Below, piece after piece: positions 4,549 to 49,543 of a DNA stretch of 64,000 nt. Source of the DNA: Streptantibioticus parmotrematis (GTDB lineage Bacteria; Actinomycetota; Actinomycetes; Streptomycetales; Streptomycetaceae); contig NZ_JAINVZ010000002.1 of NCBI RefSeq assembly GCF_019890615.1, positions 248,001 through 312,000 on the forward strand, given 5' to 3'. Below the pieces are notes generated by a model. The model worked only from the letters and a program-made list of their open reading frames with translations. It was not told where the DNA came from and did not search any database. The position numbers and the translations under genes were made by a program. Position 1 is the stretch's first letter. Every line of letters starts with the position of its first letter.

Positions 4549-4992
4549 ATGCGCAGACCGATAGCCGCGGTCACGGCGGTCGCACTGGTGGTGGACGCGT
4601 GCGCCGTGGCCTTCGTCAACGTGATCCTGGGCCTCGCCGTCAAGCGCCAGAACATGTCGCTGGCCGGGCTGAAGCCGAAGGCCATGTCCTCGGGGGCGTT
4701 CGGGGCCGCGGTGCTGTTCGGGCTCTTCCTGCTGGTGTGCGCGGCCTTCGCGGCCCGCGCCGCGATCACCGACCGGGGTCCCGGCCGGGTCGGGCGGATC
4801 GTGCTCGTCGTCTGCGCGGTGGTGCACGGCGTGCTGGGCGCGTTCCTGGTCGGGATGATGGGGTGGCTCGCGTTCGCGGCGATGATGGTGGTGCTGGCCC
4901 TCGTGGTGGCCACGCTGATGTCCTACGCGCCGCCGCGCCCGGTACCGGCCGACGGGCCGCCGGACGGCTCGCCCAGCCCCACCACCGGGTGA
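4549..4992 (+). CDS. small integral membrane protein of unknown function
   Basis: 147 residues with about four hydrophobic segments (roughly 5-30, 50-72, 82-102 and 105-127), separated by short polar loops, and a Pro-rich cytoplasmic tail (PPRPVPADGPPDG). No catalytic motif is visible. An AGGGGGG ribosome site (GAGGGGGGCCC) precedes the ATG. It lies between accA2 and maf, and its place in the gene order matches a conserved hypothetical membrane protein of Streptomyces (recalled). The function is not known. Confidence 0.75.
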   Translation: MRRPIAAVTAVALVVDACAVAFVNVILGLAVKRQNMSLAGLKPKAMSSGAFGAAVLFGLFLLVCAAFAARAAITDRGPGRVGRIVLVVCAVVHGVLGAFLVGMMGWLAFAAMMVVLALVVATLMSYAPPRPVPADGPPDGSPSPTTG

Positions 4993-5016
4993 CCCGGCCC
5001 CACCGAACCGGGTGAC

Positions 5017-5619
5017 CTACCGGACCCACAAGTCCGTGATGCGCACGCCCAGTTCGGCCAGCAGGCGGCGCAGCAGCGGCAGCGACAAGCCGATCACGTT
5101 GCCCGGGTCGCCGTCCACGCCCTCGACGAACGGCGCCGACCGGCCGTCGAGGGTGAACGCGCCCGCCACGTACAGCGGTTCGCCGCTGGCCACGTACGCC
5201 TCGATCTCGGCGTCGTCCGGCGTGCCGAACCGCACCGTGGTCGACGCCGTCTCGCTGACCCGCTTGCCGGTGGCCGTGTCGATCACGCAGTGCCCGGTGC
5301 GCAGCACGCCGTTGCGCCCGCGCATCGCCCGCCAGCGCTCCACGGCGTCGGCGGCGTCCTTCGGCTTGCCCAGCGCCCGCCCGTCGAGGTCCAGCACCGA
5401 GTCGCAGCCGACGACCAGCGCGTGATCGTCCAACCCGCCCGCCACCGCGGTCGCCTTGGCCTCGGCCAGCACCCGGGCCAGCTCGGCCGGGGTGGGTGCG
5501 CTGATCGCCTCCTCGTTCACCCCGCTGACCACCACCCGCGGATCGAGTCCGGCCTGCCGCAGCAGTCCGAGCCGGGCGGGGGAGGCGGAGGCGAGCACCA
5601 GGGTGCGGTCAGCGGTCAT
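5017..5619 (-). CDS. maf: Maf family nucleoside triphosphate pyrophosphatase
   Basis: Hydrolyses non-canonical or surplus nucleoside triphosphates to monophosphate plus pyrophosphate; the family is also linked to septum formation. The N-terminus [19 protein letters not shown] carries the Ser-x-x-Arg substrate loop of Maf proteins. [24 protein letters not shown] near 70-90 gives the catalytic Asp and Lys region. At 200 residues it has family length. It follows mmpB on the same strand and may be the last gene of a pccB-pccE-mmpB-maf transcription unit. Confidence 0.93.
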
Positions 5620-5655
5620 GCGGATCAGGGTAACGAGCGCCGCGCGGCGGCCGGC

Positions 5656-5817
5656 TCACGGCCGCCAGGCGGCCAGCACCATCAGCAGCGGCAGCAGCGC
5701 CGCCATCAGCAGCCCGGCCCGCCGCATCCTCGCCAGCGCCCGCCGCAACTCCGCATCTGGTACGTCGGATTCGTGGGATTCATCGGGTTCGTCGGATCGG
5801 CGGTCGGACCACAGCAT
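5656..5817 (-). CDS. mmpB: morphogenic membrane protein MmpB (small ORF)
   Basis: A 53-residue peptide. It begins MLWSDRRSDEPDESHE, has a charged acidic N-terminal half, and carries an ELRRALARMRRAG segment followed by one transmembrane helix (about residues 33-50). The MLWSD start, ELRxAxxRMRRAG motif and single C-terminal helix match the small Streptomyces protein named MmpB. Its position between pccE and maf also fits. It is short enough to be missed by length-filtered gene finders. Confidence 0.8.
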   Translation of the reverse strand: MLWSDRRSDEPDESHESDVPDAELRRALARMRRAGLLMAALLPLLMVLAAWRP

Positions 5818-5904
5818 CCCCCGATCCTGCGCCGAGCCGGTCGGCCCGCGCCTGAGTAGGAGTACTCAGAACGCGCGGGCCGACCGTCCCACCGCTTGCG
5901 CGCC

Positions 5905-6111
5905 TCAGTTCGGCCAGAACGCGGTGCGCCACACGCCCGCGCCCGCCCTCGGCAGCGGGCGCAGCGCCGGCGAGCGCGCCGGGTCCGCCCACGCCCGCAG
6001 CGGTGTGCCGCCGCCCTCCGTGTCCTCGCCGGACGCCGTGCGGGCCTGGACGACCGCCAGCGCCGCGGCCAGTTCCTCAGGGGTCGGGTTGCCCCGTACG
6101 ACCTTGATCAT
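5905..6111 (-). CDS. pccE: acyl-CoA carboxylase epsilon subunit
   Basis: A 68-residue accessory subunit that binds the beta subunit and stimulates actinobacterial acyl-CoA carboxylases. The N-terminus IKVVRGNPTPEELAALAVV-like segment and the C-terminal WRTAFWPN tail are typical of the family. It starts 9 bp after the stop of pccB and is surely cotranscribed with it. In S. coelicolor the pair is PccB-PccE, specific for propionyl-CoA (recalled). Confidence 0.92.
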   Translation of the reverse strand: MIKVVRGNPTPEELAAALAVVQARTASGEDTEGGGTPLRAWADPARSPALRPLPRAGAGVWRTAFWPN

Positions 6112-6120
6112 CGCGGCCTC

Positions 6121-7701
<1,581 letters not shown>

Positions 7702-34856: not shown

Positions 34857-35148
34857 CCGCGCCTCCCCGTCATCCGCCTCGTTCCGGCCAACAGGCCGCG
34901 TACAGAAGGCTTTTGACCGTACGGGACGAGGTACGGGCTCGCATAGCCAAAAGGCCGCGTGGCGGCGGCTTCCGACGGACGGCATCGCCGGGAGCCGGTT
35001 CGCCGCCGGGGTACAGCACGCGTACAGCCGCCTCCGGCATGGTGCGGGGAACCGCGCGGGCGAAGGGACGGGGCGTCTTCGTCAGCAGGACGACCTCCGG
35101 GAGCATTCCGCGACCGGGACAGCGAGAACGAGTACCCGGAGGAGACAG
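34857..35148. promoter_or_regulatory. divergent control region between the STAND gene and the RiPP cluster
   Basis: 292 bp without a gene. A TTGACC element lies at 34913-34918 and a direct repeat GTACGGG at 34919 and 34931 (12 bp apart). Such repeats could be regulator half-sites for the cluster, but the spacing does not match the usual 11-bp SARP pattern. Confidence 0.35.
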
Positions 35149-36087
35149 GTGGAAACAGACCCGGATCTGGAGACGCGCCGGACGGGCGACATGGGGGTAC
35201 TGGCCGGGGCGCTGCGGCTTCTGGCAGCCGCTCCCGTGCCGACTGACGGCATTCCTCGGACGTTCGAGGCGTCGGAGGACGCGCTCGGCGTACTGACGAT
35301 CGACCACATCGAGGACTTCCTCGAAGCGAGCCTGCTGCGATACCCGTTCGCCGGGCTGGTAAAGAACGGTGTCCCGGTGCCGGTCGCGGAGTACACGACC
35401 ACGAAACGCGTCGCCGCGTCCGGGCAGTCGCTGTACGTCGATCCGAAGGCGGTGCTGCGCCACTTCCACGCCGGTGCGACGCTGGCGTTGCGCGGTCTCG
35501 AACAGTGGCACGTTCCCGCGCGTGAACTGGTCCGGGGACTGAGCGCGGCGGTGGGCGCCGAAGTGCGCGCGACGGCCTTCCTGACGCCGCCCGGCTCGCA
35601 GGGGCTGGCCGTCCACCGGGACGAGTACCACGTCTTCGCCGTCCAGACGTACGGACGGAAGCGGTGGTTGCTGCACGGCGTGCCCGATGACGACCGCTGG
35701 CGGGGCGGCCGGATCGCCGGGGACGCCACACCGGCGGTCGACGAGGTCGTCGAAGTACGGGCGGGCCATGTCATGTTCATGGAGTGCGGCACCGCGCACG
35801 AGGCGATGACCGAGAGCGAGCCGTCCCTGCACATCGGCATCGGAGTCCACCCGCCGCGGGTGACCGATGCGGTGAAGTCGCTCGTCGGCCAAGTGCTGCG
35901 ATCCGTCGGGCCCGACTTCCTCTCGCTGGACAGGACGGCGGCGGAACAGCAGATCAGGGTCGCCGTGTCGCGGGTCGTCCTGGAACTGGCGGCGTGCGAT
36001 GCCGGGAAGGCCGCGGCGGCCCTGTTCGACGAGGCGACCGCCCTGGCGCGCGCTCCGCGGCCGTCGTTCCGGCTCGACCGGGCCTGA
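35149..36087 (+). CDS. JmjC/cupin_4 Fe(II)/2-oxoglutarate hydroxylase, RiPP cluster
   Basis: 312 residues of the JmjC-like cupin_4 (ribosomal oxygenase) type. The iron triad is His156-x-Asp158 in AVHRDEYHVFAVQ and His217 in CGTAHEA; GRKRWLLHG (169-177) is the family's signature after strand 4. Relatives hydroxylate His or Arg side chains of proteins, which suits the His-containing core peptide of the precursor 109 bp downstream. GTG at 35149 has GGAGGAG upstream. It opens the cluster. Peptide substrate is inferred from position, not shown. Confidence 0.82.
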   Translation: METDPDLETRRTGDMGVLAGALRLLAAAPVPTDGIPRTFEASEDALGVLTIDHIEDFLEASLLRYPFAGLVKNGVPVPVAEYTTTKRVAASGQSLYVDPKAVLRHFHAGATLALRGLEQWHVPARELVRGLSAAVGAEVRATAFLTPPGSQGLAVHRDEYHVFAVQTYGRKRWLLHGVPDDDRWRGGRIAGDATPAVDEVVEVRAGHVMFMECGTAHEAMTESEPSLHIGIGVHPPRVTDAVKSLVGQVLRSVGPDFLSLDRTAAEQQIRVAVSRVVLELAACDAGKAAAALFDEATALARAPRPSFRLDRA

Positions 36088-36195
36088 GTCCTGGCCCCGG
36101 CTGCGGCGCCCGTCACCACGTCCTTTCACGGCGTGACAGCGCGCGTACAGGCCTGATCGTCATAGTCCTGGTGAACGCGAAACCCGCGTTCCCTG

Positions 36196-36366
36196 ATGGA
36201 GGTGATCGCCATTCCTGGTTCACTCATTTCTCCGACCGTCGCCGAACTCGAGTCAGAGCTCATCATTCCGGTGGAGCTGCCGGAGGAGGAAGAGCTCGAG
36301 GCTCTCTACGCTCCGTGCGGTTGCGGAGTCGAGGCGTGTCACGGCGGCTGCGAGCACTGCGGCTGA
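36196..36366 (+). CDS. RiPP precursor peptide, Cys-rich core
   Basis: 56 residues from ATG 36196 (51 from ATT 36211). An acidic, hydrophobic leader (AELESELIIPVELPEEEELE) precedes the core CGCGVEACHGGCEHCG, with Cys at 41, 43, 48, 52 and 55, His at 49 and 54 and three Cys-Gly pairs. The core has no Ser or Thr. GGAGGTGATC, a near-perfect match to the 16S rRNA tail, lies inside the first codons at 36198-36207. The best-spaced start after it is ATT 36211, not the ATG. It lies directly before a DUF2063-like partner and MNIO gene, as in methanobactin-type systems. Too short for most gene finders. Confidence 0.8.
   Translation: MEVIAIPGSLISPTVAELESELIIPVELPEEEELEALYAPCGCGVEACHGGCEHCG
36198..36207 (+). 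promoter_or_regulatory. unusually strong Shine-Dalgarno that decides the precursor start
   Basis: GGAGGTGATC pairs with ten bases of the 16S anti-SD. It is followed after nine bases (counted from GGAG) by ATT at 36211. The small ORF at 37242 has GGAG, the nearly identical TGATCGCCC, then ATG at the same spacing. This parallel favours translation from ATT or an originally ATG codon. Confidence 0.5.
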
Positions 36367-36373
36367 CGTCATC

Positions 36374-36414
36374 GCCGTCGTCCGGCCCGGTCGCCCGCCG
36401 GGCCGGACGACGGC
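36374..36414 (+). terminator. 17-bp perfect hairpin after the precursor stop (attenuator)
   Basis: GCCGTCGTCCGGCCCGG (36374-36390) pairs perfectly with 36398-36414 around a 7-nt loop. It sits 8 bp after the precursor stop and 28 bp before the next start. Such hairpins in RiPP operons let most transcripts end after the precursor, so that peptide is made in excess over enzymes. Confidence 0.8.
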
Positions 36415-36442
36415 ACCGAGTCATGATGAAAGGCGGGCTCTC

Positions 36443-37267
36443 GTGGAACTCCTCGACGCTCAGATCGCCCTCTTCAAGCTCTACATGAATCCGGGCTATC
36501 GGATCGCCCACAGGATCAGTCCTCACGAATGCGCGGAGTCGTTCGGGCTCGGGCCCGAAGGCCAGGAATTCCTGGCCGCTGTTCCGCCGCGGGAGATCGA
36601 GTCGTTCGCCGACAGCCTCACGGCGAAGAACAAGAATCTGCTGGCCCGGGGTATGCCGACCGCTTATCGCTGGCTGAAGGCGAACAACCCCCGGATCATT
36701 GGTGAATACGTCGACGCGCACTTGCCGAGTCCGTCCCGCCCGCGTGAGGCGTACGTGTCGGATTTTGTCGGCTACCTGAGCGAGTGCGGACTCTTCTACG
36801 ACGGCCTTCCCCGCTCGGTGCCCGAGGTCGCACGCTTCGAGTGGCTCCTCGCCACGGCCAACTCCGCAGCGAGCACGGCGGTCCGGGCCGCTGTCCCGGA
36901 GTCGGAACCGGCGTGCGATCCCACCTCGGGCGCGGTCTTCTGGCGGAGCGAAGGCACGCACGTCGCGAGTTTCGCGGTGGACGTCGTCGGCATCGTCGTG
37001 AGGAAGAGCGACATGACGGACACCGGGTCGCCGACACACCTCATCGTCTCCGTGCGCCGGGGCGCGCGGACGCCGCGGATCCTGCGGGTGACCCGGGGGG
37101 CGGCCTGGGTGGCCGACAGGCTCAGCCGTCCGGCACGGGTCGCGGAACTCCTCGACGCGGATGGGGCCGATGACGCCGGAATCCGGAAGGACACCATCGG
37201 CCCGATCCTGGAAAAGCTCATGGAATCCGGAGTGATCGCCCATGTCTGTGGCGCGTGCGCGGAATGA
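36443..37267 (+). CDS. MNIO partner protein, DUF2063/HvfC-like with C-terminal RRE-like domain
   Basis: 274 residues. Residues 1-140 carry DUF2063-type features: AYRWLKANNPRIIGEYVDAHLP and EVARFEWLLATA. Residues about 210-268 (RILRVTRGAAWVADRLSRPA then LLDADGADDAGI and ILEKLMESGVIAHV) look like a winged helix of the RiPP recognition element type. In known systems (MbnC, TglI) this partner binds the leader and presents the core to the MNIO enzyme. GTG at 36443 follows AAAGGCGGG. The assignment is by pattern, not by alignment; a hidden RRE is the less certain part. Confidence 0.7.
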   Translation: MELLDAQIALFKLYMNPGYRIAHRISPHECAESFGLGPEGQEFLAAVPPREIESFADSLTAKNKNLLARGMPTAYRWLKANNPRIIGEYVDAHLPSPSRPREAYVSDFVGYLSECGLFYDGLPRSVPEVARFEWLLATANSAASTAVRAAVPESEPACDPTSGAVFWRSEGTHVASFAVDVVGIVVRKSDMTDTGSPTHLIVSVRRGARTPRILRVTRGAAWVADRLSRPARVAELLDADGADDAGIRKDTIGPILEKLMESGVIAHVCGACAE

Positions 37268-37454
37268 CGATGCCGGCGGCGCCGGCGTAGTCGTGATCGA
37301 AGACATCACAGAAATCCTGCGAGCCTCCGGCGGACGTTTGGCCGACGGCTGTGAAGCCTGTCGTGCCTGCGGCGTCTGGCGCCTGCGGACGGCAGAGACG
37401 TGCGGACCGGAACTAGGAGACCACCCTCATGACCCTGGACGTCGTGACCACTGA
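37242..37454 (+). CDS. possible second Cys-containing small peptide of the RiPP cluster
   Basis: 70 residues filling the gap between the partner and MNIO genes and overlapping both by 26 bp. Leader-like VVVIEDITEILRASGGRLA precedes DGCEACRACGVW and a further TCGPELGD, with Cys at 37, 40, 43 and 54. GGAG lies nine bp before the ATG. Cys-x-x-Cys-x-x-Cys could be a modified core or bind iron-sulfur or another metal. The C-terminal third merely overlaps the MNIO start in another frame, so only the first 55 residues may matter. Alternatively it is non-coding. Confidence 0.45.
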   Translation: MSVARARNDDAGGAGVVVIEDITEILRASGGRLADGCEACRACGVWRLRTAETCGPELGDHPHDPGRRDH

Positions 37455-38313
37455 CGGCCTCACCCGGCGCATCGCGCGCCGGGGCGCCGGCGTCGGCTAT
37501 CGCCGGGAGTTGCACGAGGATCTCGCGACGCATGCCGGACAGATCGACGTCGTGGAGATCCTCGCCGACCAGTGGCGCATGCCGGGCGGCCTCGACACGG
37601 TGCGGGAGGTGTGCGGGCGGTTCCGTGCGGTCCCGCACGGCGTGGGCCTGTCCTTGGCGGGAGCCGGCAGGATCGACCCCGACTACCTCGTATTCATCAA
37701 GGAACTGTCGGGTATTTGCGAGGCGGACTACTACAGCGAACACCTCGCGATGACCCATGTCCCGGGCGTGAACTCCGGCCATCTGTGCCCGCCGATCCTC
37801 AGCGAGGAGAGCCTGCGGCGGTGCGTGCGCAACGTTCTCGAGACGCAATCGGCCATCGGGATGCCGCTCGCCATCGAGAACATCACCTACAACGTCACCC
37901 TCGGCAGCCATCTCGACGCCGCGTCCTTCCTGGCAGAACTGGTGGACCGGACCGACGCCCTGCTCCTCCTGGACGTGGCCAACCTGTACATCAACTCTGT
38001 CAACTTCTCGTTCGACGTCGACGAGTACCTCGACCAGCTGCCGCTCGAACGCGTCGTCCACATCCACCTCGCGGGCGGCGTCACCAGGTCGGACGGCACG
38101 CTGATGGACACCCACTCAGAGATCATCGGCGATTCGGTCTGGCAGCTGGCCGAGAAGGTTTCGCGCAGGTGCGCCCCCAGTACCGTGATCATCGAACACG
38201 ACAGCAACTTCCCCGAGTTCCGGCGGCTCGTCGACGAAGTGGGCGATGCCCGGGGCATCTTTTTCGCGGATACCGATGACGGACGGCCCGTCGGCCGGGC
38301 GTGCGCGATATGA
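37429..38313 (+). CDS. MNIO enzyme (DUF692), multinuclear non-heme iron oxidase of the RiPP cluster
   Basis: 294 residues of the DUF692 TIM-barrel family (MbnB, TglH, ChrH relatives), which oxidise cysteine or other residues of precursor peptides using two or three iron ions and O2. Likely metal ligands are His70 (VPHGVGLSL), His105 (SEHLA), Glu150 (AIENITYN), Asp182 and Asn185 (LDVANLYIN), His213 (HIHLAGG), Asp227-x-His229 (DTHSE) and Glu257. ATG at 37429 has AGGAG upstream. The likely substrate is the Cys-rich peptide at 36196. Confidence 0.9.
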   Translation: MTLDVVTTDGLTRRIARRGAGVGYRRELHEDLATHAGQIDVVEILADQWRMPGGLDTVREVCGRFRAVPHGVGLSLAGAGRIDPDYLVFIKELSGICEADYYSEHLAMTHVPGVNSGHLCPPILSEESLRRCVRNVLETQSAIGMPLAIENITYNVTLGSHLDAASFLAELVDRTDALLLLDVANLYINSVNFSFDVDEYLDQLPLERVVHIHLAGGVTRSDGTLMDTHSEIIGDSVWQLAEKVSRRCAPSTVIIEHDSNFPEFRRLVDEVGDARGIFFADTDDGRPVGRACAI

Positions 38314-40250
38314 GGGGCGCAGCCGGTACCGCGGACGATCCGGGGGAACGGTCCGTGGCCGTCATCGGTGCGGGACCGAGTGGCCTGTCGGTCCTGGAAC
38401 GGATCTGTGCCAACGTGCGGTCGGTGGGCGGGGACACGCGCCTTCGGATGCATCTCGTCGATCCCTATGTCGAGGCCGGAGGTCGTGTCTGGCACCGGGA
38501 CCAGCCCGGGCGGTTGTGGATGAACACGGTGGCCGGAACCGTGACGATGTTCACCGACGCAACGGTGGACTGCGAGGGGCCCGTACGTCCGGGGCCGACC
38601 CTGCACGAGTGGGCGGTCGCGCAGGGGACGCCGCTGAGCGAGGACTCGTCGCTCGATCCGCTCGTGCCCGAGACCTCACGACAGCGGTGGGCGTCCCGGC
38701 GGGTCATGGGCGAGTACCTGCGGTGGTTCCTGGAGCATGTCGAGGAGCAGTGTCCGCCCGGCGTCACCGTGGAGCGGCACGCGACCGTCGCGGTCGAGGT
38801 GACCTCACGCGTGGCGCGGGGCAGGACGACACAACTGGTGCGGCTGCAGGGTCGTGACGAGGCGCTGGAGTGCGACTACGTCGTCTTCGCGTACGGCGGA
38901 CCCGGTTCGGCCCTGACAGCCCGGCAGAAGCGGCTGCGTGACGCTGCCCGGTCGAGTGGGGGCAGCTATGTCCCCGCCGGCACCGCCTCGGTGGAGGCGG
39001 TCGCGGCGGTGGCGGCGGGGGAACCCGTCCTCATGCGGGGCATCGGCCTGACGTTCTACGACTACCTCCAGCTGCTGACGACCGAACGAGGCGGACGATT
39101 CGTTCGGGAGAAGCCCGGTTCCCTCACCTACGTCCCGTCGGGTCGCGAGCCGCGGATCATGGTCGGATCGCGTCGCGGTGTTCCGCACCGTCCCGCTCCG
39201 TGGCCGCAACTCCCGCTTCCACGGCAGTGCGTCGTGCCTCGCTGGCCGGACGCGGACTCGTTGTTCGCGGCGGCGCGGGTGAGCGATCCCGCCGCGGCCG
39301 TGGCGGACATCAAGCGGCGCGTGACGTACGAAGCCGAGTACGCTTACTACTTCGAGCTGTTCGCCTCCCATCCGGACCGGGTGGCCTCGGCGTGGGACGA
39401 GTTCTCCGTCAGACTCCGACAGGCCCGGGCAGGGGGCCGGGCGCGGCTCGCGATGGTCACTGCGGCGGTGCGGTCCTCCGAGGACGTCTTCGATCTGGAG
39501 CGGACGACGGACCCCCTGCGAGAAGCGACGTTCGGGGATCTCGGCAGCCTCCAGACGTGGATGCGCCGTCACGTGGCGGCGTCCTCGCGGCGTTCCATGA
39601 GCCCGGACCACAGTGCCGACCGTGCGGCGTTGACCGCGCTCTCGCGCGTGTCCAACCTGCTGGTCGAGATGCCGCGAGACGGTCTGCGACGGGAGTCGAC
39701 CGAGGCCGTCGCGGGGGTCAGGCGGTGGTTGGCATCACAGATCAAGTACCTCGCAGGCGGGGCCCCGTGGCCGCGCCAGGAAGAGTTGATCGCTCTGTCC
39801 CGGGCGGGCGTCGTCACCTTCCTGGGACCGATCGGCGAGGTGACCGCGGACGGGACCGGGCGGCTGCGCTGCCGGTCGCTCTGCGTCCCGGACACGGAGA
39901 TCCACTTCTCGAGTCTCGTCGAAGCGCGTATGCCGGACCCGGCCGCCGGGACTCCGGTCGTTTCCTCCACGGAGGCACCGGTGCGTCTGTCCACCGCGGC
40001 CTGCGCCGACGGCGTGTCCGGTGGTGTGGTTCCCGCGGCCCGGGCGCCGAAGTTCAGGGTGTCCGACGCCGGTCAGGTGCTGACCCCGTCCGGCATGCCT
40101 GATCCGCACTGGTACGCCGTCGGGGCCTCGGCCGCGACGCCGACCCACTCCAGCCTGCCGAGAGTGCGGATGAACTCGGCCCTCCTGCGCAGGACCGACA
40201 GGATCGCCCGGTCCGTACTCGCCGACCTGCGTCGGCACCAGGAAGACTGA
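38310..40250 (+). CDS. FAD/NAD(P)-binding oxidoreductase of the RiPP cluster
   Basis: 646 residues of the FAD-NAD(P)-binding family of large actinobacterial flavoproteins. The dinucleotide motif VAVIGAGPSGLSVLERI is near the N-terminus, WMNTVAGTVTMFTD lies about 70, and FAYGGPGS is near 200. A GVGASAATP-like C-terminal motif (YAVGASAATPTHSSLPRVRMNS) closes the FAD site. The ATG at 38310 overlaps the MNIO stop (ATGA), so it is coupled. It could oxidise the peptide or supply electrons; neither is shown. GTG at 38301 is an alternative start. Confidence 0.78.
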   Translation: MRGAAGTADDPGERSVAVIGAGPSGLSVLERICANVRSVGGDTRLRMHLVDPYVEAGGRVWHRDQPGRLWMNTVAGTVTMFTDATVDCEGPVRPGPTLHEWAVAQGTPLSEDSSLDPLVPETSRQRWASRRVMGEYLRWFLEHVEEQCPPGVTVERHATVAVEVTSRVARGRTTQLVRLQGRDEALECDYVVFAYGGPGSALTARQKRLRDAARSSGGSYVPAGTASVEAVAAVAAGEPVLMRGIGLTFYDYLQLLTTERGGRFVREKPGSLTYVPSGREPRIMVGSRRGVPHRPAPWPQLPLPRQCVVPRWPDADSLFAAARVSDPAAAVADIKRRVTYEAEYAYYFELFASHPDRVASAWDEFSVRLRQARAGGRARLAMVTAAVRSSEDVFDLERTTDPLREATFGDLGSLQTWMRRHVAASSRRSMSPDHSADRAALTALSRVSNLLVEMPRDGLRRESTEAVAGVRRWLASQIKYLAGGAPWPRQEELIALSRAGVVTFLGPIGEVTADGTGRLRCRSLCVPDTEIHFSSLVEARMPDPAAGTPVVSSTEAPVRLSTAACADGVSGGVVPAARAPKFRVSDAGQVLTPSGMPDPHWYAVGASAATPTHSSLPRVRMNSALLRRTDRIARSVLADLRRHQED

Positions 40251-40265
40251 AGAACAGGAAGACGC

Positions 40266-40958
40266 ATGGAGCTCCTTCACAGTTCGGACCAGTTCGCCGT
40301 GTTCGACGACTTTCTCGGTGCCGAGGCTTTTCAGCAGATGCAGGCGTACCTGGGGTCCGAGAACTTCACCTACGTCAGGTCGCGCCGGTGGCACACCGCC
40401 TTCAAACTGCTGGATGGCGATCCGCTCGTCGGCTCCTCCGTGTTGAGCGATCACCCGGCGCCGCCGGAGAACGTCCTGGTGCACCCCTGCGGAAGGGGCA
40501 TCGACGTGGTCGCCACCGCGATCAAGGCGGCGCTGCCCGATCTTGCCCCCTGGGTCGGCAAGCAGGGTGAAGCCTGGGAATTCTTCACCTGCACGTCTTA
40601 CATCTATCCCATGGGAAGCGGATTGTCCTGGCACAAGGACGCCAAAAACAGGGCCGGTTCCTACGTCCTCTACCTCCACCCCGAATGGCAGCCCAAATGG
40701 GGAGCGGAGCTGCTGCTGTCCGGCACACCGGAGTGGCATCGCGGTACCGGGGACGAGCAGCCCCAGCGGGCGACCGGAACACCCGGCGGAATCGGCCAGT
40801 TCGTCACGCCGTACCCGAACCGGCTCGTGGTCATGAAGGCGGGCGTCATGCACGCCGTCAAGAAGGTGGACGTGACGGCGGGCGACCACGCCAGGTATTC
40901 GATCGCGGGCTTCTTCCAGACCGCGGCCGAACCGGCACCGCAGGACAGGGCCTCGTGA
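40266..40958 (+). CDS. 2-oxoglutarate/Fe(II) dioxygenase (prolyl-4-hydroxylase-like) of the RiPP cluster
   Basis: 230 residues with a double-stranded beta helix. The iron triad is His123-x-Asp125 (SWHKDAKN) and His196 (AGVMHAVKKV), and Arg210 (HARYSIAGF) should bind 2-oxoglutarate. YIYPMGSGLSWHKD and the strand pattern resemble P4H-type enzymes. Proline 40 lies directly before the first Cys of the core, so a hydroxylated core residue is plausible. AGGAAG precedes the ATG. The next gene overlaps its stop by 4 bp. Confidence 0.85.
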   Translation: MELLHSSDQFAVFDDFLGAEAFQQMQAYLGSENFTYVRSRRWHTAFKLLDGDPLVGSSVLSDHPAPPENVLVHPCGRGIDVVATAIKAALPDLAPWVGKQGEAWEFFTCTSYIYPMGSGLSWHKDAKNRAGSYVLYLHPEWQPKWGAELLLSGTPEWHRGTGDEQPQRATGTPGGIGQFVTPYPNRLVVMKAGVMHAVKKVDVTAGDHARYSIAGFFQTAAEPAPQDRAS

Positions 40959-42712
40959 TCCGGCCGGAGCGCCCCGGCCCGCAAGGAGACAGCGGCGTCG
41001 GCAGGACGGATGTCTGGCGCCGGGTGCTGCGCCTGTTCAGGCCGCATCGACGCCAGCTCGCCCTGTCATTGCTGATCGTCGCGATCATCTCGGGACTGAA
41101 CGCCTCCAGCCCGGTCCTGCTGCGCGCTGTGATCAACGACGCGCTGCCACACTGTCGCACCGGCCTGCTCGCGGTCCTGTGCGTCCTGATGATCCTTGCC
41201 GGAATGCTCGCCGGGGGACTGTCGATTCTGCTCGCGGCCATCAACAACCGGACAGGTCAGCGCATCGTCCACACCCTGCGGACGGATCTGTACGGCGCGA
41301 TGCAGGAGATGCCGCTCGACTACTTCGGTGAGGAGTCCACTGCTGAGATCCAGGCGCGCCTCGCCAGTGACATCGGTGGTGTCAGCGATGTCATGACGTT
41401 CGCCGCGCACTCGCTGCTCGGCGGCGCAGCGACGTTCGTCACCTCGGCGGTCGTCATGCTGTACATGAGCTGGCCGATAGGGCTTGCCTCGGTTGTGCTG
41501 TCGCTGGCCCTCAACCTGCTGAACAACAGGTTCGCGCGCAAGCGGCGCCGCCTCGCCAGGGAACAGCAGAGCCACGTGGCGCGGATGCTTCAGATCTCCG
41601 GCGAGCACCTCTCGCTGGCCGGTGTGATCATCGGGCGGACGCTGGCGCGCGAGGACTGGCAGCGTGACGTGTTCGAGCGCGCCTCGTCGGATGTGCGGGA
41701 CAAGGCCATCAGGCAACGGCTCGCCGGGCGGACCGCGTTGGCCCTGATCGCGATGACTCTTGCCTGCCTTCCGGCGTGTGCCTACTGGGCCGCCGGGACC
41801 GTTTTGCCGGGGTTGTCGCTGGGCGCGGTCGTGGTGCTCACGACACTGCAGACGAGGCTGTCCACACCGATCCAGCAACTGCTGCAAGTCAGTGCCGAGA
41901 TCCAGAGCTCCGCGGCCATGTTCGAGCGGATCTTCGCCTACCTCGATCTTCCGCGTACGCGCCGGCGCAGCCCGCGTGCCGCGTTGACCCGCCCGCGGGA
42001 GCGGCCCGGCTCGATCCGCCTGGACGGCGTCGGATACGGCTTCCCGGGCAGTGGCCGACGGGTGCTCGACGGGTTCAGCGCGACGATCCACGCCGGATCA
42101 CGGACCTTCGTGATGGGCGAGTCCGGTGCGGGCAAGAGCACGCTCGGGCTTGTGATCTCGGGACTGGTCCAGCCTGACGCTGGAGAGATCTCCGTTCGCC
42201 CGCCCGACGGTCCGCGTACCGCGTCGTTGTGCGACCACGTCACGCTCGTGCCGCAGGAAGCCGTACTGTCGAACGCGACCATCCGTGAGAACCTCTTGTT
42301 CGCCCGGCCGGACGCCGATGACGCCGACATCGCGAAGGCCCTCGAGACGGTGTGTCTGTCCGGCCTTGTGGCAGGGCTCACGCTGGGCCTCCAGGCGCCG
42401 GTCGGAGAGCGTGGCGCCCAGCTTTCCGGTGGGGAACGGCAGCGGCTCGCGTTGGCCCGGTCGCTCCTGGCCGGCTACCCCGTCATGGTCATGGACGAGA
42501 CGCTCAGCGGTGTCGACAGCGAGACAGCCGAGCAGATCTACCGGAACCTGGACCGTGACTTCCCGGGCAGGACCCTCATCTTCATCACGCACCGACTGCC
42601 GGAGGCGCTGCCCGGCTCCGACCTGATCGTCATGGCGAAGGGCGCGGTCGGCTACCACGGGACGCGCGACCGGACCACGCCGCCCGCCCCCCAGGGGATG
42701 CCGGCTCGCTGA
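40955..42712 (+). CDS. ABC exporter, fused permease-ATPase, of the RiPP cluster
   Basis: 585 residues: six transmembrane helices (about 25-310) followed by an ATPase with Walker A GESGAGKST, signature LSGGERQRLALARSLL, Walker B VMVMDE and H-loop ITHR. It is a type I exporter, probably a homodimer that secretes the modified peptide. There is no N-terminal C39 peptidase domain, so it does not itself cut the leader. GTG at 40955 overlaps the previous stop (GTGA). Confidence 0.92.
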   Translation: MIRPERPGPQGDSGVGRTDVWRRVLRLFRPHRRQLALSLLIVAIISGLNASSPVLLRAVINDALPHCRTGLLAVLCVLMILAGMLAGGLSILLAAINNRTGQRIVHTLRTDLYGAMQEMPLDYFGEESTAEIQARLASDIGGVSDVMTFAAHSLLGGAATFVTSAVVMLYMSWPIGLASVVLSLALNLLNNRFARKRRRLAREQQSHVARMLQISGEHLSLAGVIIGRTLAREDWQRDVFERASSDVRDKAIRQRLAGRTALALIAMTLACLPACAYWAAGTVLPGLSLGAVVVLTTLQTRLSTPIQQLLQVSAEIQSSAAMFERIFAYLDLPRTRRRSPRAALTRPRERPGSIRLDGVGYGFPGSGRRVLDGFSATIHAGSRTFVMGESGAGKSTLGLVISGLVQPDAGEISVRPPDGPRTASLCDHVTLVPQEAVLSNATIRENLLFARPDADDADIAKALETVCLSGLVAGLTLGLQAPVGERGAQLSGGERQRLALARSLLAGYPVMVMDETLSGVDSETAEQIYRNLDRDFPGRTLIFITHRLPEALPGSDLIVMAKGAVGYHGTRDRTTPPAPQGMPAR

Positions 42713-42749
42713 GCCATCGGGGCCGCAACCCAGAGGAACGGAACATCGC

Positions 42750-44474
42750 ATGCCCTACGTACTCGGACTCGGGGGTCCGTACCGCCACGACGCCTCCGCG
42801 TGTCTCGTCGACGAGACCGGACAGATCGTCGCTTTCGCCGAGGAGGAGCGCTTCAGCAGGCGCAGATGGAGTGCCGGAACGCGCAAGACATCGAGATCGG
42901 TGAGCTTCTGCCTGGATCGTGCGGGCATAGGCCTCGCGGACGTGGACGACATCGTCGCCGGCTTCGTCCCGCGCTGGCTGGACGGGCCCGCCATCCGGCA
43001 CCGGCGACTGATCCGGCAGACGCTCGAGCCCAGGTACTTCGACGGCCACCAGCCGGTGGAGGTCAGTGTGATCGGGCATCACCTGGCCCACGCCGCCTCC
43101 GCCTTCCATTGTTCGGGATTCGACCGTGCGGCTGTGCTGGTGGTCGACGGTGCCGGCGACGGCGCGGCCACCAGCCTCTACCGCGGCACGCCCGACGGCC
43201 TCGAACTGGTGGAGGACTACCCGTTCAACCAGTCGCTCGGGCTGCTGTACGAGAGTGCCGCCGGATACCTCGGACTCGGCGATCTGGGCGGCGCCGACAA
43301 GCTGATGGCACTCGCGGCCTACGGCGAACCACGGTATGACCTGGGCTTCCTCACCGAGACCGCCTCCGGCTACGCTATCGACCTGTCGAAGTACGGGATG
43401 GGTCCGCGGGATACCGGGGGTTTCCGGCACGTCACCCCGGACTGGTCGCGGCGCATGAAGGAATGCTGCCGCGCCGCGTACGCGGCGCTGGGAGTGCCGG
43501 AGCGCACCAGCTGGCTCAGCTACGACCGCGCCTCGGGAGGATTCAGCCGGTGCGACGACTTCACGCCGGAACAAGCCGACCTGGCCGCTTCGATGCAGGC
43601 CGCACTGGAACGGTGTCTGCTCTCCCTGGCCCGCCGGGCCCTGGCCGCCTCCGGTACCACTCGGCTGTGCCTGGCCGGGGACGTCGCCCTGAACTGCGCC
43701 GCCAACGGCGTTTTGCAGCGCTACAGCGGGGCGACCGAACTCTTCGTGCAGCCCGCGGCCGACGACGCGGGCATCGCCATTGGTGCGGCACTGGAGGTGG
43801 CGCGTCAGCGCGGCTACGCGACGATCCCGTCGCGGCGTATGACACACATCGCGTTCGGCCCCGACTTCTCCGACGAGGGGATCGGACGTGTCCTGGACGA
43901 GACCGGCGCCCGCTACACCCATCACGGCGATGCGGTCGTGGAAGCAGCCGCGACGGCGCTCGCCGACGGCAGCGTCATCGGCTGGTTCCAGGGCCGCGCC
44001 GAAGGAGGACCGAGAGCCCTCGGCCGTCGAAGCATCCTCGGGGACCCTCGTTCCGTCACGACGCGTGACCGCATGAACCGGGACATCAAGAGGCGCGAGT
44101 GGTGGCGTCCGCTCGGTCTGAGCGTTCACGCGGACGCCGCCGGGGACCTCGTTCTCACTCCGTCGCCGGGCAGTACCGATTTCATGGCTGTCGCCCATTA
44201 CGCCACCGAGACGGCCAGGACCAGGGCCCCTGCGGCGGTGCACGTGGACGACACCTTGCGCCCGCAGGTGGTGACCGCCGCGGCGGACGACCGGTATGCC
44301 CGGCTCCTCCACGCGTTCGGTGCCCGCACCGGAGTCCTCGCGCTCGTCAATGCCTCGTTCAACGACGAGTCGGAGCCGATCGTCTGCTCACCGGCGGACG
44401 CTCTGCGCATGTTCTGGTCGTCGCCGATGGACGCCCTGGCGATCGGCGGCTTCTGGCTCGACAAGCGGCGATAG
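42750..44474 (+). CDS. carbamoyltransferase, NodU/CmcH family, RiPP cluster
   Basis: 574 residues with the bipartite fold of O-carbamoyltransferases. The Kae1-like N-terminal half has a metal site GHHLAHAAS (His110, His111, His114) and VVDGAGDGAATSL. The C-terminal YrdC-like half has AEGGPRALGRRSIL and NASFNDESEPIVCSP. It makes carbamoyl-AMP from carbamoyl phosphate and moves the carbamoyl group to a hydroxyl. As the core peptide lacks Ser and Thr, the acceptor may be a hydroxyl added by the two oxygenases, or Tyr38. GAGGAACGG precedes the ATG. Confidence 0.9.
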   Translation: MPYVLGLGGPYRHDASACLVDETGQIVAFAEEERFSRRRWSAGTRKTSRSVSFCLDRAGIGLADVDDIVAGFVPRWLDGPAIRHRRLIRQTLEPRYFDGHQPVEVSVIGHHLAHAASAFHCSGFDRAAVLVVDGAGDGAATSLYRGTPDGLELVEDYPFNQSLGLLYESAAGYLGLGDLGGADKLMALAAYGEPRYDLGFLTETASGYAIDLSKYGMGPRDTGGFRHVTPDWSRRMKECCRAAYAALGVPERTSWLSYDRASGGFSRCDDFTPEQADLAASMQAALERCLLSLARRALAASGTTRLCLAGDVALNCAANGVLQRYSGATELFVQPAADDAGIAIGAALEVARQRGYATIPSRRMTHIAFGPDFSDEGIGRVLDETGARYTHHGDAVVEAAATALADGSVIGWFQGRAEGGPRALGRRSILGDPRSVTTRDRMNRDIKRREWWRPLGLSVHADAAGDLVLTPSPGSTDFMAVAHYATETARTRAPAAVHVDDTLRPQVVTAAADDRYARLLHAFGARTGVLALVNASFNDESEPIVCSPADALRMFWSSPMDALAIGGFWLDKRR

Positions 44475-44494
44475 TGCGCGGGCCGCGACGGCGC

Positions 44495-47233
44495 TCATCC
44501 GCCGGCCTCGGAGAGCCGCGCGCGGATGTCCGCGGCCTGCGTGCTGCCGACGGCGGCGAGCAATTCGTGCGCGACCGTCCAGGCGCGCCGGGCCTGCACG
44601 AGATCCCCCGCGCGCCGGTGGGCGTCGCCCAAGTCGCGCAGTGCTGCGGCCTGCCCGGGCCGGTTTCCCGCGTCACGGTGGACGCGGACGGCCTGCCGCA
44701 GCGATTCCAGCGCCGCCGTGTCCTGGCCGAGTCGTTGCTGCACGGCGGCGAGACCGGTGAGCACCTGGCCCTCGGCGTCGGGTCGTCCGCTCGAACGGTA
44801 CGTGTCGCGTGCCTCGTTGTAGCGCTGCAAAGCTTCGTCGAGCCGGCCGGCGTCGACGTCGACGCAAGCGAGGTTGTACAGCGCCGCACCGCGCAGGTGC
44901 GGGGAATCGGTCTGCTCGGCGATGGTCAGGGCCCGGTGGAGCACCTCGACGGCCTGGGCGTTCGATCCTGTTGCGTGGTAGGCGTCCCCGAGGTTGTTCA
45001 GGACGAAGCCTTCCATGATCTGGTCGCCCGAGGCGTGGTTCAGCTCCGCCGCCCGCCGGAAGTGCTCGATGGCCTCGTCGAGCCGCCGCAGAGACAGACA
45101 GACGACTCCGGCCAGGTTGGCGACCACGGTCTCCGGACGGGGGTCGGCAAGACGGCGTGCGGCACGCAGGCCCGTCTCACAGAGCGCCAGCCAGTCCGAC
45201 CAGTATCCCCGCAGGTGGCACACGTCGGCCAGAACCAGAGGGGCGTACCAGACCAGGTCGTGCATCTGCCGGCGCCCGGCTCGCTCGGCCAGAGCGGTCA
45301 GGTTCGCGCGCTCCCGCTCGAGCCAGCCCAGCGCGCTCTCGCGGTCGGCGAAGCCGGGAACCTCGGCAGGACCCTCGTACGGCGGGGGCGCGCTGTCCCG
45401 GCTGGGACGGATCGCGCGCCGCGCGTTGTCGGCGGCATTCAGGTACCAGGTGAGGAGACGGCGCACCGCCGCGTCGCGTTCCGGCTCGCCCTCCTCCCTG
45501 CCGACGCGCTCGCTCGCGTACTCGTGGACCAGGTCGTGCAGCCGGTAGCGCCCGGCCTCCGGGGCGTCCGCCAGGTGCGCGCCGATGAGGTGGCCGAGTG
45601 CCGTCTCCGCTTCGCCCGGGAAGACGTCCGCCAGCGCGGCGAACTGGACCGGTCCGAACCATTCGCCGTCCCACAGCCCGAGAAGGCGCAGTCCTCGGGC
45701 GGTGGCGGGGGGCAGGGCCACGTAGCTGGTCTCCAGGCAGGTGCGCACCGACCTCTGACCGTCGTCGAACTCGTCGAGGTGGGGATGCGAGCCGGACAGG
45801 CGGCGCGCCATGTCTGCGACCGACAGGTCGGGCCGGGTCGCCAGCCGGGCACCGATGAGCCGGATCGCCAGCGGCATGCCGCCGCACGCGGTCAGCACTC
45901 GCTCGGTCGCCTCCGGTTCCGACGCGGCGCGGGCGGCACCGACGATGTCGGCGAACAGCTTCGCCGCGTGATCGGGGACGAGTGCCGTGAGGCCGAACGA
46001 CTGGACCCCGTCGAGCGCCGCGAGCCTCGTGCGGCTGGTGACGATCGCGGCGGACCCTTGGTACCCGGGAAGCAACAGACTGACCTGCGCCGTATCCGCG
46101 GCGTCGTCGAGCACTACGAGCACCCGGCGCTCGGCGAGCAGGCTGCGGTACAGGACGGCGAGTTCGTCCTCGGTCGCGGGAAGCGCGCCGTCACCTCTCA
46201 GCGCCCTGATGAACTGGGCCAGTACCGAGGTCGGCGAACGAGGAGCGTCACTGGTGCCGCGCAGATCCGCGAACAGCTGGCCGTCGGGGAAGGCACCGCG
46301 CACCTGGTGCGCGGCTTTCAGCGCGACGCTGGTCTTGCCGATGCCCCCCAAGCCGGTGACGGCCACGACGGGCACGCCGTCGGCCGGTGTCCCGAGGGTC
46401 CGCGTCAGTTCCCCGACCAGTTCCGTGCGACCGACGAAGTCGTTCACACCGGCGGGGAGCTGCCGGGGGACCATCACCTGGCGGGCCGACACCGACGAGG
46501 ACGGTGGCGGCACGCTCAGGGCGGGATCGCCCGCCAGGATCGCCTCGTGCAGACTCCGCAGCTCGGGACCCGGGTCGAGTCCCAGTTCACGCACCGACTC
46601 GGCGTGCCCGGCCCGGTACGTCTCCAGGGCCTCGCCGGGAACGCCCGACCGGTAGAGGGCGAGCATCAGCTGCCCGCGCAGACGTTCTCGTAGCGGGTGC
46701 TCGTTGAGGACCGGGCGGAGTGCGGTGACCAGCTCGGCGTGACGACCGGCGTCCAGCGAGGCCTGCGCCCAGTCCTCGAACGTCACCAGCCGGGCTTCCT
46801 CCAGCGCGAACGCCTCCATGTCGACACACGGGGAGGAGGGGATGTCGGCGAACGCCCGGCCGCGCCACAGTGACAACGCCTGGTCGAGCAGATCGACAGC
46901 GGCATCGCCCTGGGCCTCGGCGCCGCGGCGGGTCAGCTCCCGGAACCGGAGGCAGTCCGCGGCGCCGGCGCGCAGGCTGTAACCGGACGGCCCATTGGCC
47001 ACCGATCCGGGCCCGAGGAGGCGACGCAGTCGGGAGATCCGCACCTGCACCGCGTTGCGCGGATCCGCGGGCACACGCTTGCGCCACACAGCCTCCGTCA
47101 GGTGTTCGACCGTGACCGGTTCTCCCGCGTGCACCAGCAACTCGCCCAGGAAGGCCCGGTCCCGTGCCGAGGCGGGGCTGATCCACCGAGTACCGTCGCC
47201 CAGCAACAACGGCCCCAGGACCGCGAATTCCAT
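44495..47233 (-). CDS. AfsR/SARP family regulator with NB-ARC and TPR domains
   Basis: 912 residues. An OmpR-type winged helix (about 1-95, [14 protein letters not shown]), a bacterial transcriptional activation domain (about 96-235), an NB-ARC ATPase with P-loop GLGGIGKTS (294-302) and GGMPLAIRL, then TPRs (about 690-900). SARP proteins switch on antibiotic clusters, so it is the likely activator of the adjacent RiPP genes. AAGGGAG precedes the ATG at 47233. It converges on the carbamoyltransferase gene with only 20 bp between them. Confidence 0.93.
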
Positions 47234-47518
47234 TGGCCGGCTCCCTTCCTCGATGGCGGCACTGTGGCACACCGCCTCGGGGCGGCCGTTCGCGGTGTCC
47301 GCGGGCAGCGAGGTGCGTGCTCAGCGCCTATGTCACGGCATGATGCCTGGTCGCGCTGCGTGACCGCACGGCGGCGTGGGATTCGTGAACGGGCGAGGGA
47401 CCGCGGTGGGCCTCGATGGCGCGGCAGCGGGGCGGCGAGGCACACGGAGGAACGGGGTTCCGGCCCTGTCGGGCCGGGCCGCACCGGCCGAGGCGGGCGT
47501 TGTGGGAGGCTGGATCGC

Positions 47519-49543
47519 ATGAACCGGCTGGCTGGTGTGACCTCGCCTTATCTGCTTCAGCACGCGGACAACCCGGTGGACTGGTGGCCCTGGTCCCCCG
47601 AGGCGTTCGCGGAGGCGCGGCGGCGCGACGTGCCGGTGCTGCTGTCCGTGGGGTATTCGGCGTGCCACTGGTGTCATGTGATGGCTCGGGAGTCGTTCGA
47701 GGACGTTGCCACCGCTGCTGTCGTCAATGACGGGTTCGTCGCGGTCAAGGTGGATCGGGAGGAGCGGCCGGACGTCGACGCCGTGTACATGGAGGCGGTG
47801 CAGGCGGCTACCGGGCAGGGTGGGTGGCCTATGACCGTTTTTCTGACGCCGGACGGGGAGCCGTTCTACTTCGGGACCTACTTTCCGCCTGAGCCACGGC
47901 ACGGCATGCCCGGGTTCCGGCAGGTGCTGGAGGGCGTGCGCAGCGCTTGGCGGGACCGGCGCGAGGAGGTCGGGGAGGTTGCCGGGCGGATCGTGCGGGA
48001 TCTGTCCGAACGACGGATCGCGCAGGTCGGGGGCGCCGCGCCGGGGGCCGAGGAACTGGGGGCCGCGCTGCTGGGGCTGACGCGGGAGTACGACGCCACG
48101 CGGGGCGGGTTCGGGGGCGCGCCGAAGTTCCCGCCGTCGATGGCGCTGGAGTTCCTGCTGCGGCACCACGCGCGCACCGGTTCCGAGGGCGCGTTGCAGA
48201 TGGCGGCCGACACCTGTGAGGCGATGGCGCGCGGCGGGATCTACGACCAGCTCGGCGGCGGCTTCGCGCGCTACAGCGTGGACCGGGAATGGGTCGTGCC
48301 GCATTTCGAGAAGATGCTGTACGACAACGCGCTGCTGTGCCGGGTGTACGCGCATCTGTGGCGGGCCACCGGCTCTGACCTCGCGCGGCGTGTGGCGGTC
48401 GGGACCGCCGACTTCATGGTGCGTGAACTGCGCACCGCGCAGGGCGGGTTCGCCTCCGCGCTGGACGCCGACAGCGACCGCGCCGACGGCACGCACGCCG
48501 AGGGCGCGTACTACGTGTGGACGCCCGATGAGCTGCGCGAGGTGCTGGGGGAGGAGGACGCCCGGCTCGCCGCGCAGTACTTCGGGGTGACCGAGGACGG
48601 GACCTTCGAGCACGGCGCCTCCGTACTCCAGCTCAAGGGCGGGGAGTTGGCGGACGGCGAACGGATCGGGGAGGTGCGGGCTCGGCTGCTGGAGGCGCGG
48701 GAGCTGCGGCCCCGGCCCGGCCGGGACGACAAGGTGGTCGCCGCGTGGAACGGGCTGGCGATCGCCGCGCTCGCCGAGACCGGCGCGTACTTCGAGCGCC
48801 CCGACCTCGTACGGGCCGCGCTGGACGCCGCCGACCTGCTCGTACGGGTGCACATGGACGACGAGCACGCGCGCCTCGCCCGCACCTCGCGCGACGGCGT
48901 CGTAGGCGCCAACTCCGGTGTCCTGGAGGACTACGCGGACGTGGCCGAGGGCTTCGTCACGCTGGCCGGGGTGACCGGCGAGGGCGTGTGGCTGGAGTTC
49001 GCCGGGCTGCTGCTCGACACCGTGCTGCGGCACTTCGCCGACGGGGACGGCGGCTTCCACGACACCGCCGACGACGCCGAACGCCTCATCCGCAGGCCGC
49101 AGGACCCCACCGACAACGCGACCCCCTCGGGCTGGACCGCCGCCGCGCAGGCGCTGCTGTCGTACGCGGCCCACACCGGCTCGGAACGCCATCGCACCGC
49201 CGCCGAGGGCGCGTTGGGGATCGTGGGCGCGCTGGCCGGGCGAGCACCGCGGTTCATCGGCTGGGGCCTGGCGGCGGCGGAAGCGGCGCTGGACGGACCC
49301 CGCGAAGTGGCCGTCGTCGGACCCGCGGGCGATCCGGCGACCGCCGCGCTGCACCGGACCGCGCTGCTGGGGACCGCGCCGGGCGCGGTGGTCGCCGTGG
49401 GCGAGCCGGACGGCGAGGAGTTCCCGTTGCTGCGCGACCGGCCGCTGGTCGACGGCCGCCCGGCCGCGTACGTGTGCCGCCACTTCACGTGCGACGCGCC
49501 GGTGACGGATGCGGAGGCGCTGGCGGAGCGGCTCGGGGGCTGA
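47519..49543 (+). CDS. thioredoxin-domain protein, DUF255/YyaL family
   Basis: 674 residues. An N-terminal DUF255 domain (about 1-165) is thioredoxin-like and has an SACHWCHVM motif with Cys49 and Cys52; a barrel of six-hairpin glycosidase type (about 230-600) follows. The same layout occurs in bacterial YyaL and human SPATA20. Its true substrate is not established. The ATG at 47519 gives [23 protein letters not shown], the conserved start. Confidence 0.9.

Follow-up and report, generated by a model that had tools for sequence, protein, structure and literature searches.

In a 64,000-nt stretch of DNA (G000:C12:248001-312000; hereafter the window) from the 7.4 Mb genome of a Streptomycetaceae host, we found what is likely to be a mobile biosynthetic cluster for a small Cys-rich ribosomally synthesized and post-translationally modified peptide (RiPP) of the multinuclear non-heme iron-dependent oxidase (MNIO) type, matured by the route proposed below. 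The genes at 35149-44474 were all located on the plus strand, and their starts and stops overlapped or nearly did so. The original prediction for this DNA had described such a run, with a Cys-rich peptide, an MNIO, a flavoprotein, a 2-oxoglutarate (2OG) enzyme, an ABC exporter and a carbamoyltransferase, and with a cupin_4 protein upstream; coordinates and Pfam matches bore out both the arrangement and these genes. It had overlooked a second small gene, here called microprotein B (37242-37454), and it had placed the novelty on the carbamoyltransferase and the cupin_4 hydroxylase. Both were found to be strain-specific, and their pairings with MNIO have been published (PMC13174530, PMC12257519). 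The new parts are instead an apparently neofunctionalised CreE-type flavoenzyme and microprotein B.

Related Clusters and Rarity

In an MNIO search of 84,980 genomes, two loci stood close to the window: L005 in Streptomyces sp. ADI95-17 and L006 in S. corallincola. A third relative, L008 (genome G069), came from the sampled family genomes, and a fourth, L042, from a plasmid search (a megaplasmid of Streptomyces sp. NBC_01527; MNIO identity 62%). These four and the window, which represent five independent contexts in at least five streptomycetes, are referred to as the five clusters. The window MNIO shared 53-62% identity with those of its relatives. The core common to all five comprised precursor peptide A, a TglI-like partner, microprotein B, the MNIO, the CreE-type flavoenzyme and the ABC exporter. 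The 2OG oxygenase gene was present in four (the window, L006, L008, and L042), and neither the carbamoyltransferase nor the cupin_4 gene had a homologue in L005, L006, L008, or L042.

This gene cluster family is rare. The partner search of 298 family genomes found one close and one weak (E 1.9e-4) match in other genomes, and a partner profile search of 395 class genomes gave no additional member, only a different cluster type (L043). MNIOs in general occurred in 249 of the 298 family genomes, at about 35-40% identity. Three candidates were set aside: L010 (G096) had only a weak match to an MNIO fragment, L007 had only an MNIO at background identity (37-40%), and L043 carried a partner and an MNIO within another type of cluster.

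Precursor A and Its Hairpin

Precursor A is encoded by a Cys-rich open reading frame (ORF) of 56 codons at 36196-36366 (plus strand) and consists of an acidic leader and a Cys-rich core (...LYAPCGCGVEACHGGCEHCG). The original prediction had made its case depend on the recurrence of this peptide at homologous loci, and homologues were found in all five clusters, with two tandem copies in L008. In L006, the first impression, with none upstream, was that the precursor was absent; this was overturned by a displaced copy behind the exporter, on the opposite strand. The homologues shared an acidic leader (e.g., VAELESELIIPVELPEEEELEAL; LAEEVEEELLIPVKLDEDD) and had short, variable, Cys/Gly-rich C-terminal cores starting near P-x-C. 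The window peptide aligned with each of the other four better than with shuffled sequences (p <= 0.001). All five clusters thus encoded a precursor with a conserved leader and a variable Cys-rich core beside modifying enzymes, which is the arrangement expected of a RiPP. Together with the retention of all iron ligands in the MNIO, this gave good support to the earlier reading of the locus as an MNIO RiPP system.

Hairpins that limit read-through are common behind the precursor genes of RiPP operons. A perfect 17-bp hairpin resembling an attenuator or terminator was located between A and the partner gene (36374-36414, plus strand). Strong hairpins were found at this place in all four clusters with that gene order (the window, L005, L008, and L042), with minimum free energy z-scores of -5.4 in the window and -4.1, -7.9, and -4.3 in the others. 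Their sequences were unrelated, and their strength was comparable. The hairpin suggested that A is the abundant product. Scans for sigma-70 promoters and terminators gave signals at chance level only.

The ribosome site ahead of the ATG of A was poor (36196-36215), and GGAGGTGATC was found directly before an in-frame ATT. The A homologues aligned best with a start at this ATT, and a rare ATT initiation is possible from the sequence.

MNIO and Its Partner

New peptide chemistry continues to emerge from MNIO enzymes, the majority of which are uncharacterised. The MNIO (DUF692) gene of the window was located at 37429-38313 (plus strand; PF05114, 2.5e-68). The nine ligands reported for the two- to three-iron site of TglH (H71, H107, E151, D184, N187, H216, D229, H231, and E258; PMC10880893) mapped to H70, H105, E150, D182, N185, H213, D227, H229, and E256, including the HxD pair for Fe3, and all nine were invariant across the five clusters. 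The enzyme scored below every NCBIfam equivalog cut-off (BufB, HvfB, ApyH, ChrH, and MbnB); the best was BufB, with 199 bits against a cut-off of 310.

The partner gene (36443-37267, plus strand) encodes 274 aa with about 30-35% identity to the partners in the other four clusters. The original prediction had called it a DUF2063/RiPP recognition element-like protein; the assignment as a partner held, and the DUF2063 (PME-type 1) identity was excluded, as the protein matched no Pfam or NCBIfam model, DUF2063 included. The best match of its AlphaFold model was TglI (8hi7_A; Foldseek E 5e-4, probability 1.0, TM about 0.40), and by this predicted fold the protein is a TglI-type partner; a TglI/NGO1945-like fold with no DUF2063 signature corresponds to PME-type 2 in the sense of PMC12452194. 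Type-2 partners go with precursors that have no signal peptide (PMC12452194), and no signal peptide was found in precursor A.

Microprotein B

Microprotein B (37242-37454, plus strand) overlapped the stop of the partner gene as well as the start of the MNIO gene and was conserved in all five clusters. Nine residues were invariant, mostly within GC[DE]ACR[AG]CxxW, a Cys-rich motif (CxxCxxC) that reads GCEACRACGVW in the window (37347-37379, plus strand). In the motif DNA, 10 of the 15 variable columns were third codon positions, and 44 of the 68 pairwise codon differences were synonymous. The DNA motif was detected in two of 395 family genomes, both times exactly inside the clusters, and there were no control matches. 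A chance ORF was ruled out by this specificity, the third-position variation, the nine invariant residues and a comparison with shuffled sequences. In four clusters, the start of B overlapped the stop of the partner gene (as ATGA in two). These sequence features indicate that B is cluster-specific, under coding constraint, and usually translationally coupled between the partner and the MNIO.

The most likely role of B is as an accessory of the partner-MNIO complex. The main alternative is that it is a second substrate, and in the stronger form of this idea B rather than A is the main substrate of the MNIO, with GC[DE]ACR[AG]CxxW as the core, comparable to SNKEWQE in StdA; A would then be a co-product or be matured by the flavin and 2OG enzymes. 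We consider this stronger form unlikely, if worth keeping in view. B is the most conserved short sequence of the cluster, its N-terminal half is acidic and leader-like, and it is placed directly ahead of the MNIO; its AlphaFold model, built from four sequences, was of low confidence (mean pLDDT 58) and predicted an unstructured protein. However, the overlap with the partner stop and the lack of an inverted repeat behind B in the window point to enzyme-level rather than precursor-level expression, and the variable core, the tandem duplication and the attenuator typical of precursors all belong to A.

Both A and B were without a match among the Pfam and NCBIfam models, as would be the case if the small ORFs were spurious and the genes formed an oxidative small-molecule or protein-modifying operon rather than a RiPP cluster. 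This seems very improbable: A and B were homologous across the five clusters, the B motif varied mostly at third codon positions, and A was already annotated as a gene in the public L042 record. Moreover, in the characterised cases examined, an MNIO and a partner of the TglI kind work together to modify peptides.

The CreE-Type Flavoenzyme

The flavoenzyme gene, which encodes an FAD-NAD protein, was located at 38310-40250 (plus strand; PF13454), and its best start, ATG 38310, overlapped the MNIO stop. The original prediction had recognised a flavoprotein and had missed its kinship with L-aspartate N-hydroxylase. In a phmmer comparison, the protein matched PDB entry 8cp2 with E 4e-67 over residues 15-626. 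The latter is the L-aspartate N-hydroxylase (nitrosuccinate synthase) of Streptomyces sp. V2, which makes nitrosuccinate (PMC10404684).

The aspartate-binding residues R13, R266, R276, R409, R412, N413, R416, and R577 were compared in six MNIO-linked copies, comprising one per cluster and a second, divergent copy in L042. By the alignment, R13 (replaced by S, Y, F, or M), R266, R276, R409, and R412 were lost in all six, and most copies carried a Pro/Trp-containing insertion near R276. The GxGxxG dinucleotide motif and Asn62 were kept. In contrast, the true CreE-type homologues and the host's own paralogue kept all eight residues. In the tree, the MNIO-linked enzymes formed one group with a support of 100/100, on a long branch from the CreE-type group. 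The plasmid relatives of the family were found beside genes for pcaB/CreD-type lyase or nitronate monooxygenase, as the nitrosuccinate pathway predicts. A CreE (aspartate N-hydroxylase) function was rejected for the MNIO-linked enzymes on the lost site residues. Since the aspartate-binding arginines were lost while the motifs and Asn62 were kept, the enzyme probably works like a class B flavin monooxygenase outside the aspartate N-hydroxylases.

The gene context suggests that this enzyme acts on the peptide. It is also conceivable, though rather improbable, that it still yields a small N-oxygenated building block, with a compound other than Asp as its substrate; this block would be joined to the peptide or put to a separate use. 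In favour of this, a free amino acid is the substrate of one homologue (8cp2), and plasmid relatives occur in contexts that predict such activity (PMC10404684). However, no ligase, carrier protein or nitrosuccinate lyase genes were seen in the clusters, and the Asp-binding arginines were missing from every copy. Should the enzyme act on the peptide, the cluster would offer a leader-guided, genetically encoded way of making peptides with N- or S-oxygenation, which are of interest as metal ligands or reactive groups.

The second CreE-type enzyme of the host is encoded at G000:C7:154605-156437 (L082), and neither an MNIO nor a precursor matched next to it. As the host thus encodes a true CreE-type enzyme as well, the proposed substrate switch can be put to a direct test. 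The second flavoenzyme of L042 (L042:8389-10347), which diverges from the operon, grouped with the L006 enzyme and not with its neighbour, thus pointing to two subtypes of MNIO-linked flavoenzyme.

Tailoring and Export Enzymes

The 2OG-Fe(II) oxygenase resembled prolyl-4-hydroxylases (40266-40958, plus strand; PF13640, 1.9e-10) and was 44-45% identical to its homologues in L006, L008, and L042. All four enzymes kept the HxD motif, and the window residues were H123-x-D125...H196. The ABC exporter (40955-42712, plus strand; best start GTG 40955) had membrane and ATPase domains (PF00664, PF00005) and shared 44-50% identity with those of the other four clusters; Pfam recognised no peptidase domain in it.

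Upstream of A, a JmjC_2/cupin_4 2OG-type hydroxylase was encoded at 35149-36087 (plus strand; PF08007, 4e-15). It kept the HxD...H residues (H156, D158, and H217) and matched NO66, MINA and ribosomal-oxygenase structures. At the other end, the O-carbamoyltransferase (42750-44474, plus strand; PF16861, PF02543) matched TobZ over 4-571 (E 6.5e-92), with two domains and visible HDAS and HHLAHAAS motifs. As neither gene occurs in any of the four related clusters, the two were rejected as the defining feature of the locus.

The carbamoyltransferase, with or without the cupin_4 enzyme, may even be an unrelated accessory gene outside the pathway, a possibility that we take seriously without favouring it. 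In addition to its absence from the four relatives, its nearest plasmid relatives (52-53%) belonged to a small-molecule cluster with radical SAM, P450, SHMT and glycosyltransferase genes. However, the gene starts only 37 bp past the ABC gene, on the same strand and island, the intervening stretch has neither an inverted repeat nor a terminator, and the 2OG and cupin enzymes could furnish its hydroxyl acceptor. If the carbamoyltransferase does belong to the pathway, a hydroxyl from one of these two enzymes is the likely acceptor.

Comparison with Known Systems

Among the closest published cases is the std cluster of Streptomyces thermodiastaticus (PMC13174530, a 2026 preprint), where an MNIO and its RRE-type partner occur with a NodU-like carbamoyltransferase whose substrate is a ribosomal peptide; that study gives crocagin as the other example of carbamoyltransferase use in a RiPP. 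The std cluster, of the homocitrulline type, differs in YcaO-TfuA, an SNKEWQE core, an MFS permease and a carbamoyltransferase that is fused to a protease and acts on Lys; its description includes neither a flavoenzyme, a 2OG enzyme or a B protein nor a Cys-rich core. The window cluster, in contrast, has no YcaO, TfuA or S8 domain, its carbamoyltransferase is unfused, and its core contains no Lys.

The TglH-TglI pair of the 3-thiaglutamate (pearlin) pathway (PMC10880893) resembles the window pair in the full nine-residue ligand set and the TglI-fold partner, and acts on Cys in the Tgl system. However, TglA is a scaffold that gains one Cys via a peptide aminoacyl-tRNA ligase, an enzyme not present in the window cluster, whereas the multi-Cys core of A is genetically encoded. 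The biphenomycin-type pbs/bpm clusters (PMC12257519) likewise combine an MNIO, a partner and a JmjC/cupin hydroxylase in one RiPP cluster. They differ in an FxF-type core, an arginase and a B12-radical SAM enzyme, and no Cys-rich core, flavoenzyme or carbamoyltransferase is described for them. The bufferin and adjamnio families (PMC12452194) share Cys-rich MNIO-associated precursors and the combination of a type-2 partner with a signal-less precursor, whereas bufferins have DUF2063 partners and Sec signal peptides. Genes of the carbamoyl-, 2OG- or N-hydroxylase type go unmentioned in the main text of PMC12452194.

The window flavoenzyme shares full-length homology, the FAD/NADPH motifs and the catalytic Asn62 with CreE, FzmM and the V2 enzyme 8cp2 (PMC10404684). 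Unlike these, it has lost the arginines of the aspartate entry chamber, has no nitrosuccinate lyase partner, and is located beside an MNIO and a precursor. In the open literature, subscription papers not being covered, we found no paper joining RiPP with nitrosuccinate or PF13454 with ribosomally synthesized peptides, no link between MNIO and flavin N-oxygenases, and no CreE-type enzyme tied to a RiPP. No RiPP paper on a conserved, MNIO-tied microprotein like B was found there either. The cluster adds a flavin N-oxygenase lineage that appears to have been converted from a small-molecule enzyme, with a clear loss of the substrate site, and a microprotein tied to an MNIO.

Proposed Pathway

From the gene content, we infer the following steps and their order. 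Precursor A would be made in excess over the enzymes, because read-through past its gene would be held down by the hairpin. Its acidic leader would be bound by the TglI-like partner, which would present the Cys-rich core to the tri-iron MNIO, with B as an accessory of this complex, and at least one cysteine would be oxidatively rearranged or cyclised by the MNIO. Having lost its fit for free aspartate, the CreE-type flavin monooxygenase would then oxygenate the peptide at an amine or a thiol, and the 2OG oxygenase would hydroxylate a side chain. The ABC exporter would move the product out, and the leader would be cut by a protease encoded elsewhere. In the window strain only, the cupin_4 hydroxylase and the O-carbamoyltransferase would add a further hydroxyl and a carbamate; this strain-specific pair is a natural experiment in the tailoring of a single scaffold.

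More tentatively, a nitrosuccinate-synthase-fold enzyme may have been redirected to N- or S-oxygenation of a ribosomal peptide, in company with a tri-iron MNIO that needs B as its third subunit. To our knowledge, there is no precedent for a peptide-directed nitrosuccinate-synthase fold or for such a third subunit of an MNIO.

Several points weigh against the pathway as drawn. L005 has no 2OG gene, no leader peptidase is encoded in the cluster, and the start codon of A is ambiguous (ATG 36196, a GTG, or the ATT behind GGAGGTGATC). The partner model was built from four sequences and was of medium confidence (mean pLDDT 63). The loss of the aspartate site, as read from the alignment, tells only what the substrate of the flavoenzyme is not. 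Furthermore, the same variable slot could carry the carbamoyltransferase and the cupin_4 hydroxylase as passengers.

Genomic Island and Flanking Genes

The original prediction had also taken the locus for an inserted accessory island, and comparison with the same-genus genome G016 agreed with this. Its flanks were collinear on both sides with 93% identity, up to window position 34931 and again from 47502, and the interval matching 34932-47501 was filled with unrelated DNA, which contained an IS-like fragment and a helicase-like gene as judged from the translations. The G+C content of the island was 0.698, compared with 0.735-0.746 in the flanks. No att-type repeat was found at the island ends. 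The L042 cluster was carried by a megaplasmid, with an IS6 transposase and an integrase nearby. The whole unit of the window occupies a variable site of the chromosome and is best read as a mobile biosynthetic cluster.

Inside the island, an AfsR/SARP-type (BTAD-NB-ARC-TPR) regulator was encoded on the minus strand at 44495-47272 (PF03704, 6e-38). It is a candidate regulator of the cluster, and a regulator with 31% identity adjoins the L008 cluster. In the window at 47502-49543 and in L077 (G007:C3), the interval before a DsbH-type (DUF255) gene was an accretion spot. In G007, a duplicate of roughly 800 bp from the 5' end of DsbH was found 15 kb upstream (83% identity), similar fragments were present in G005, and the IS-like fragment and the helicase-like gene of G016 occupied this spot.

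Other Loci

The excluded locus L043 (G515:C12:86000-105000) encoded a Cys-rich peptide (..SSCGGCNGCMGCSM), a profile-matched partner and an MNIO. Asparagine-synthetase-like enzymes, GT4 glycosyltransferases and carbamoyltransferases were each encoded twice, and the locus may represent another MNIO-carbamoylation RiPP, perhaps a glycosylated one. In S. corallincola, a RamC/LanKC-like synthetase (L006:15799-18264) was located directly beside the MNIO cluster and the displaced precursor, so a hybrid cluster is possible. Finally, in L051 (NZ_CP108024, locus 4703-7173), a gene for a 45-aa acidic peptide was followed by two JmjC cupins, a GNAT protein and an MFS transporter, and the locus looks like a small cupin-only RiPP cluster.

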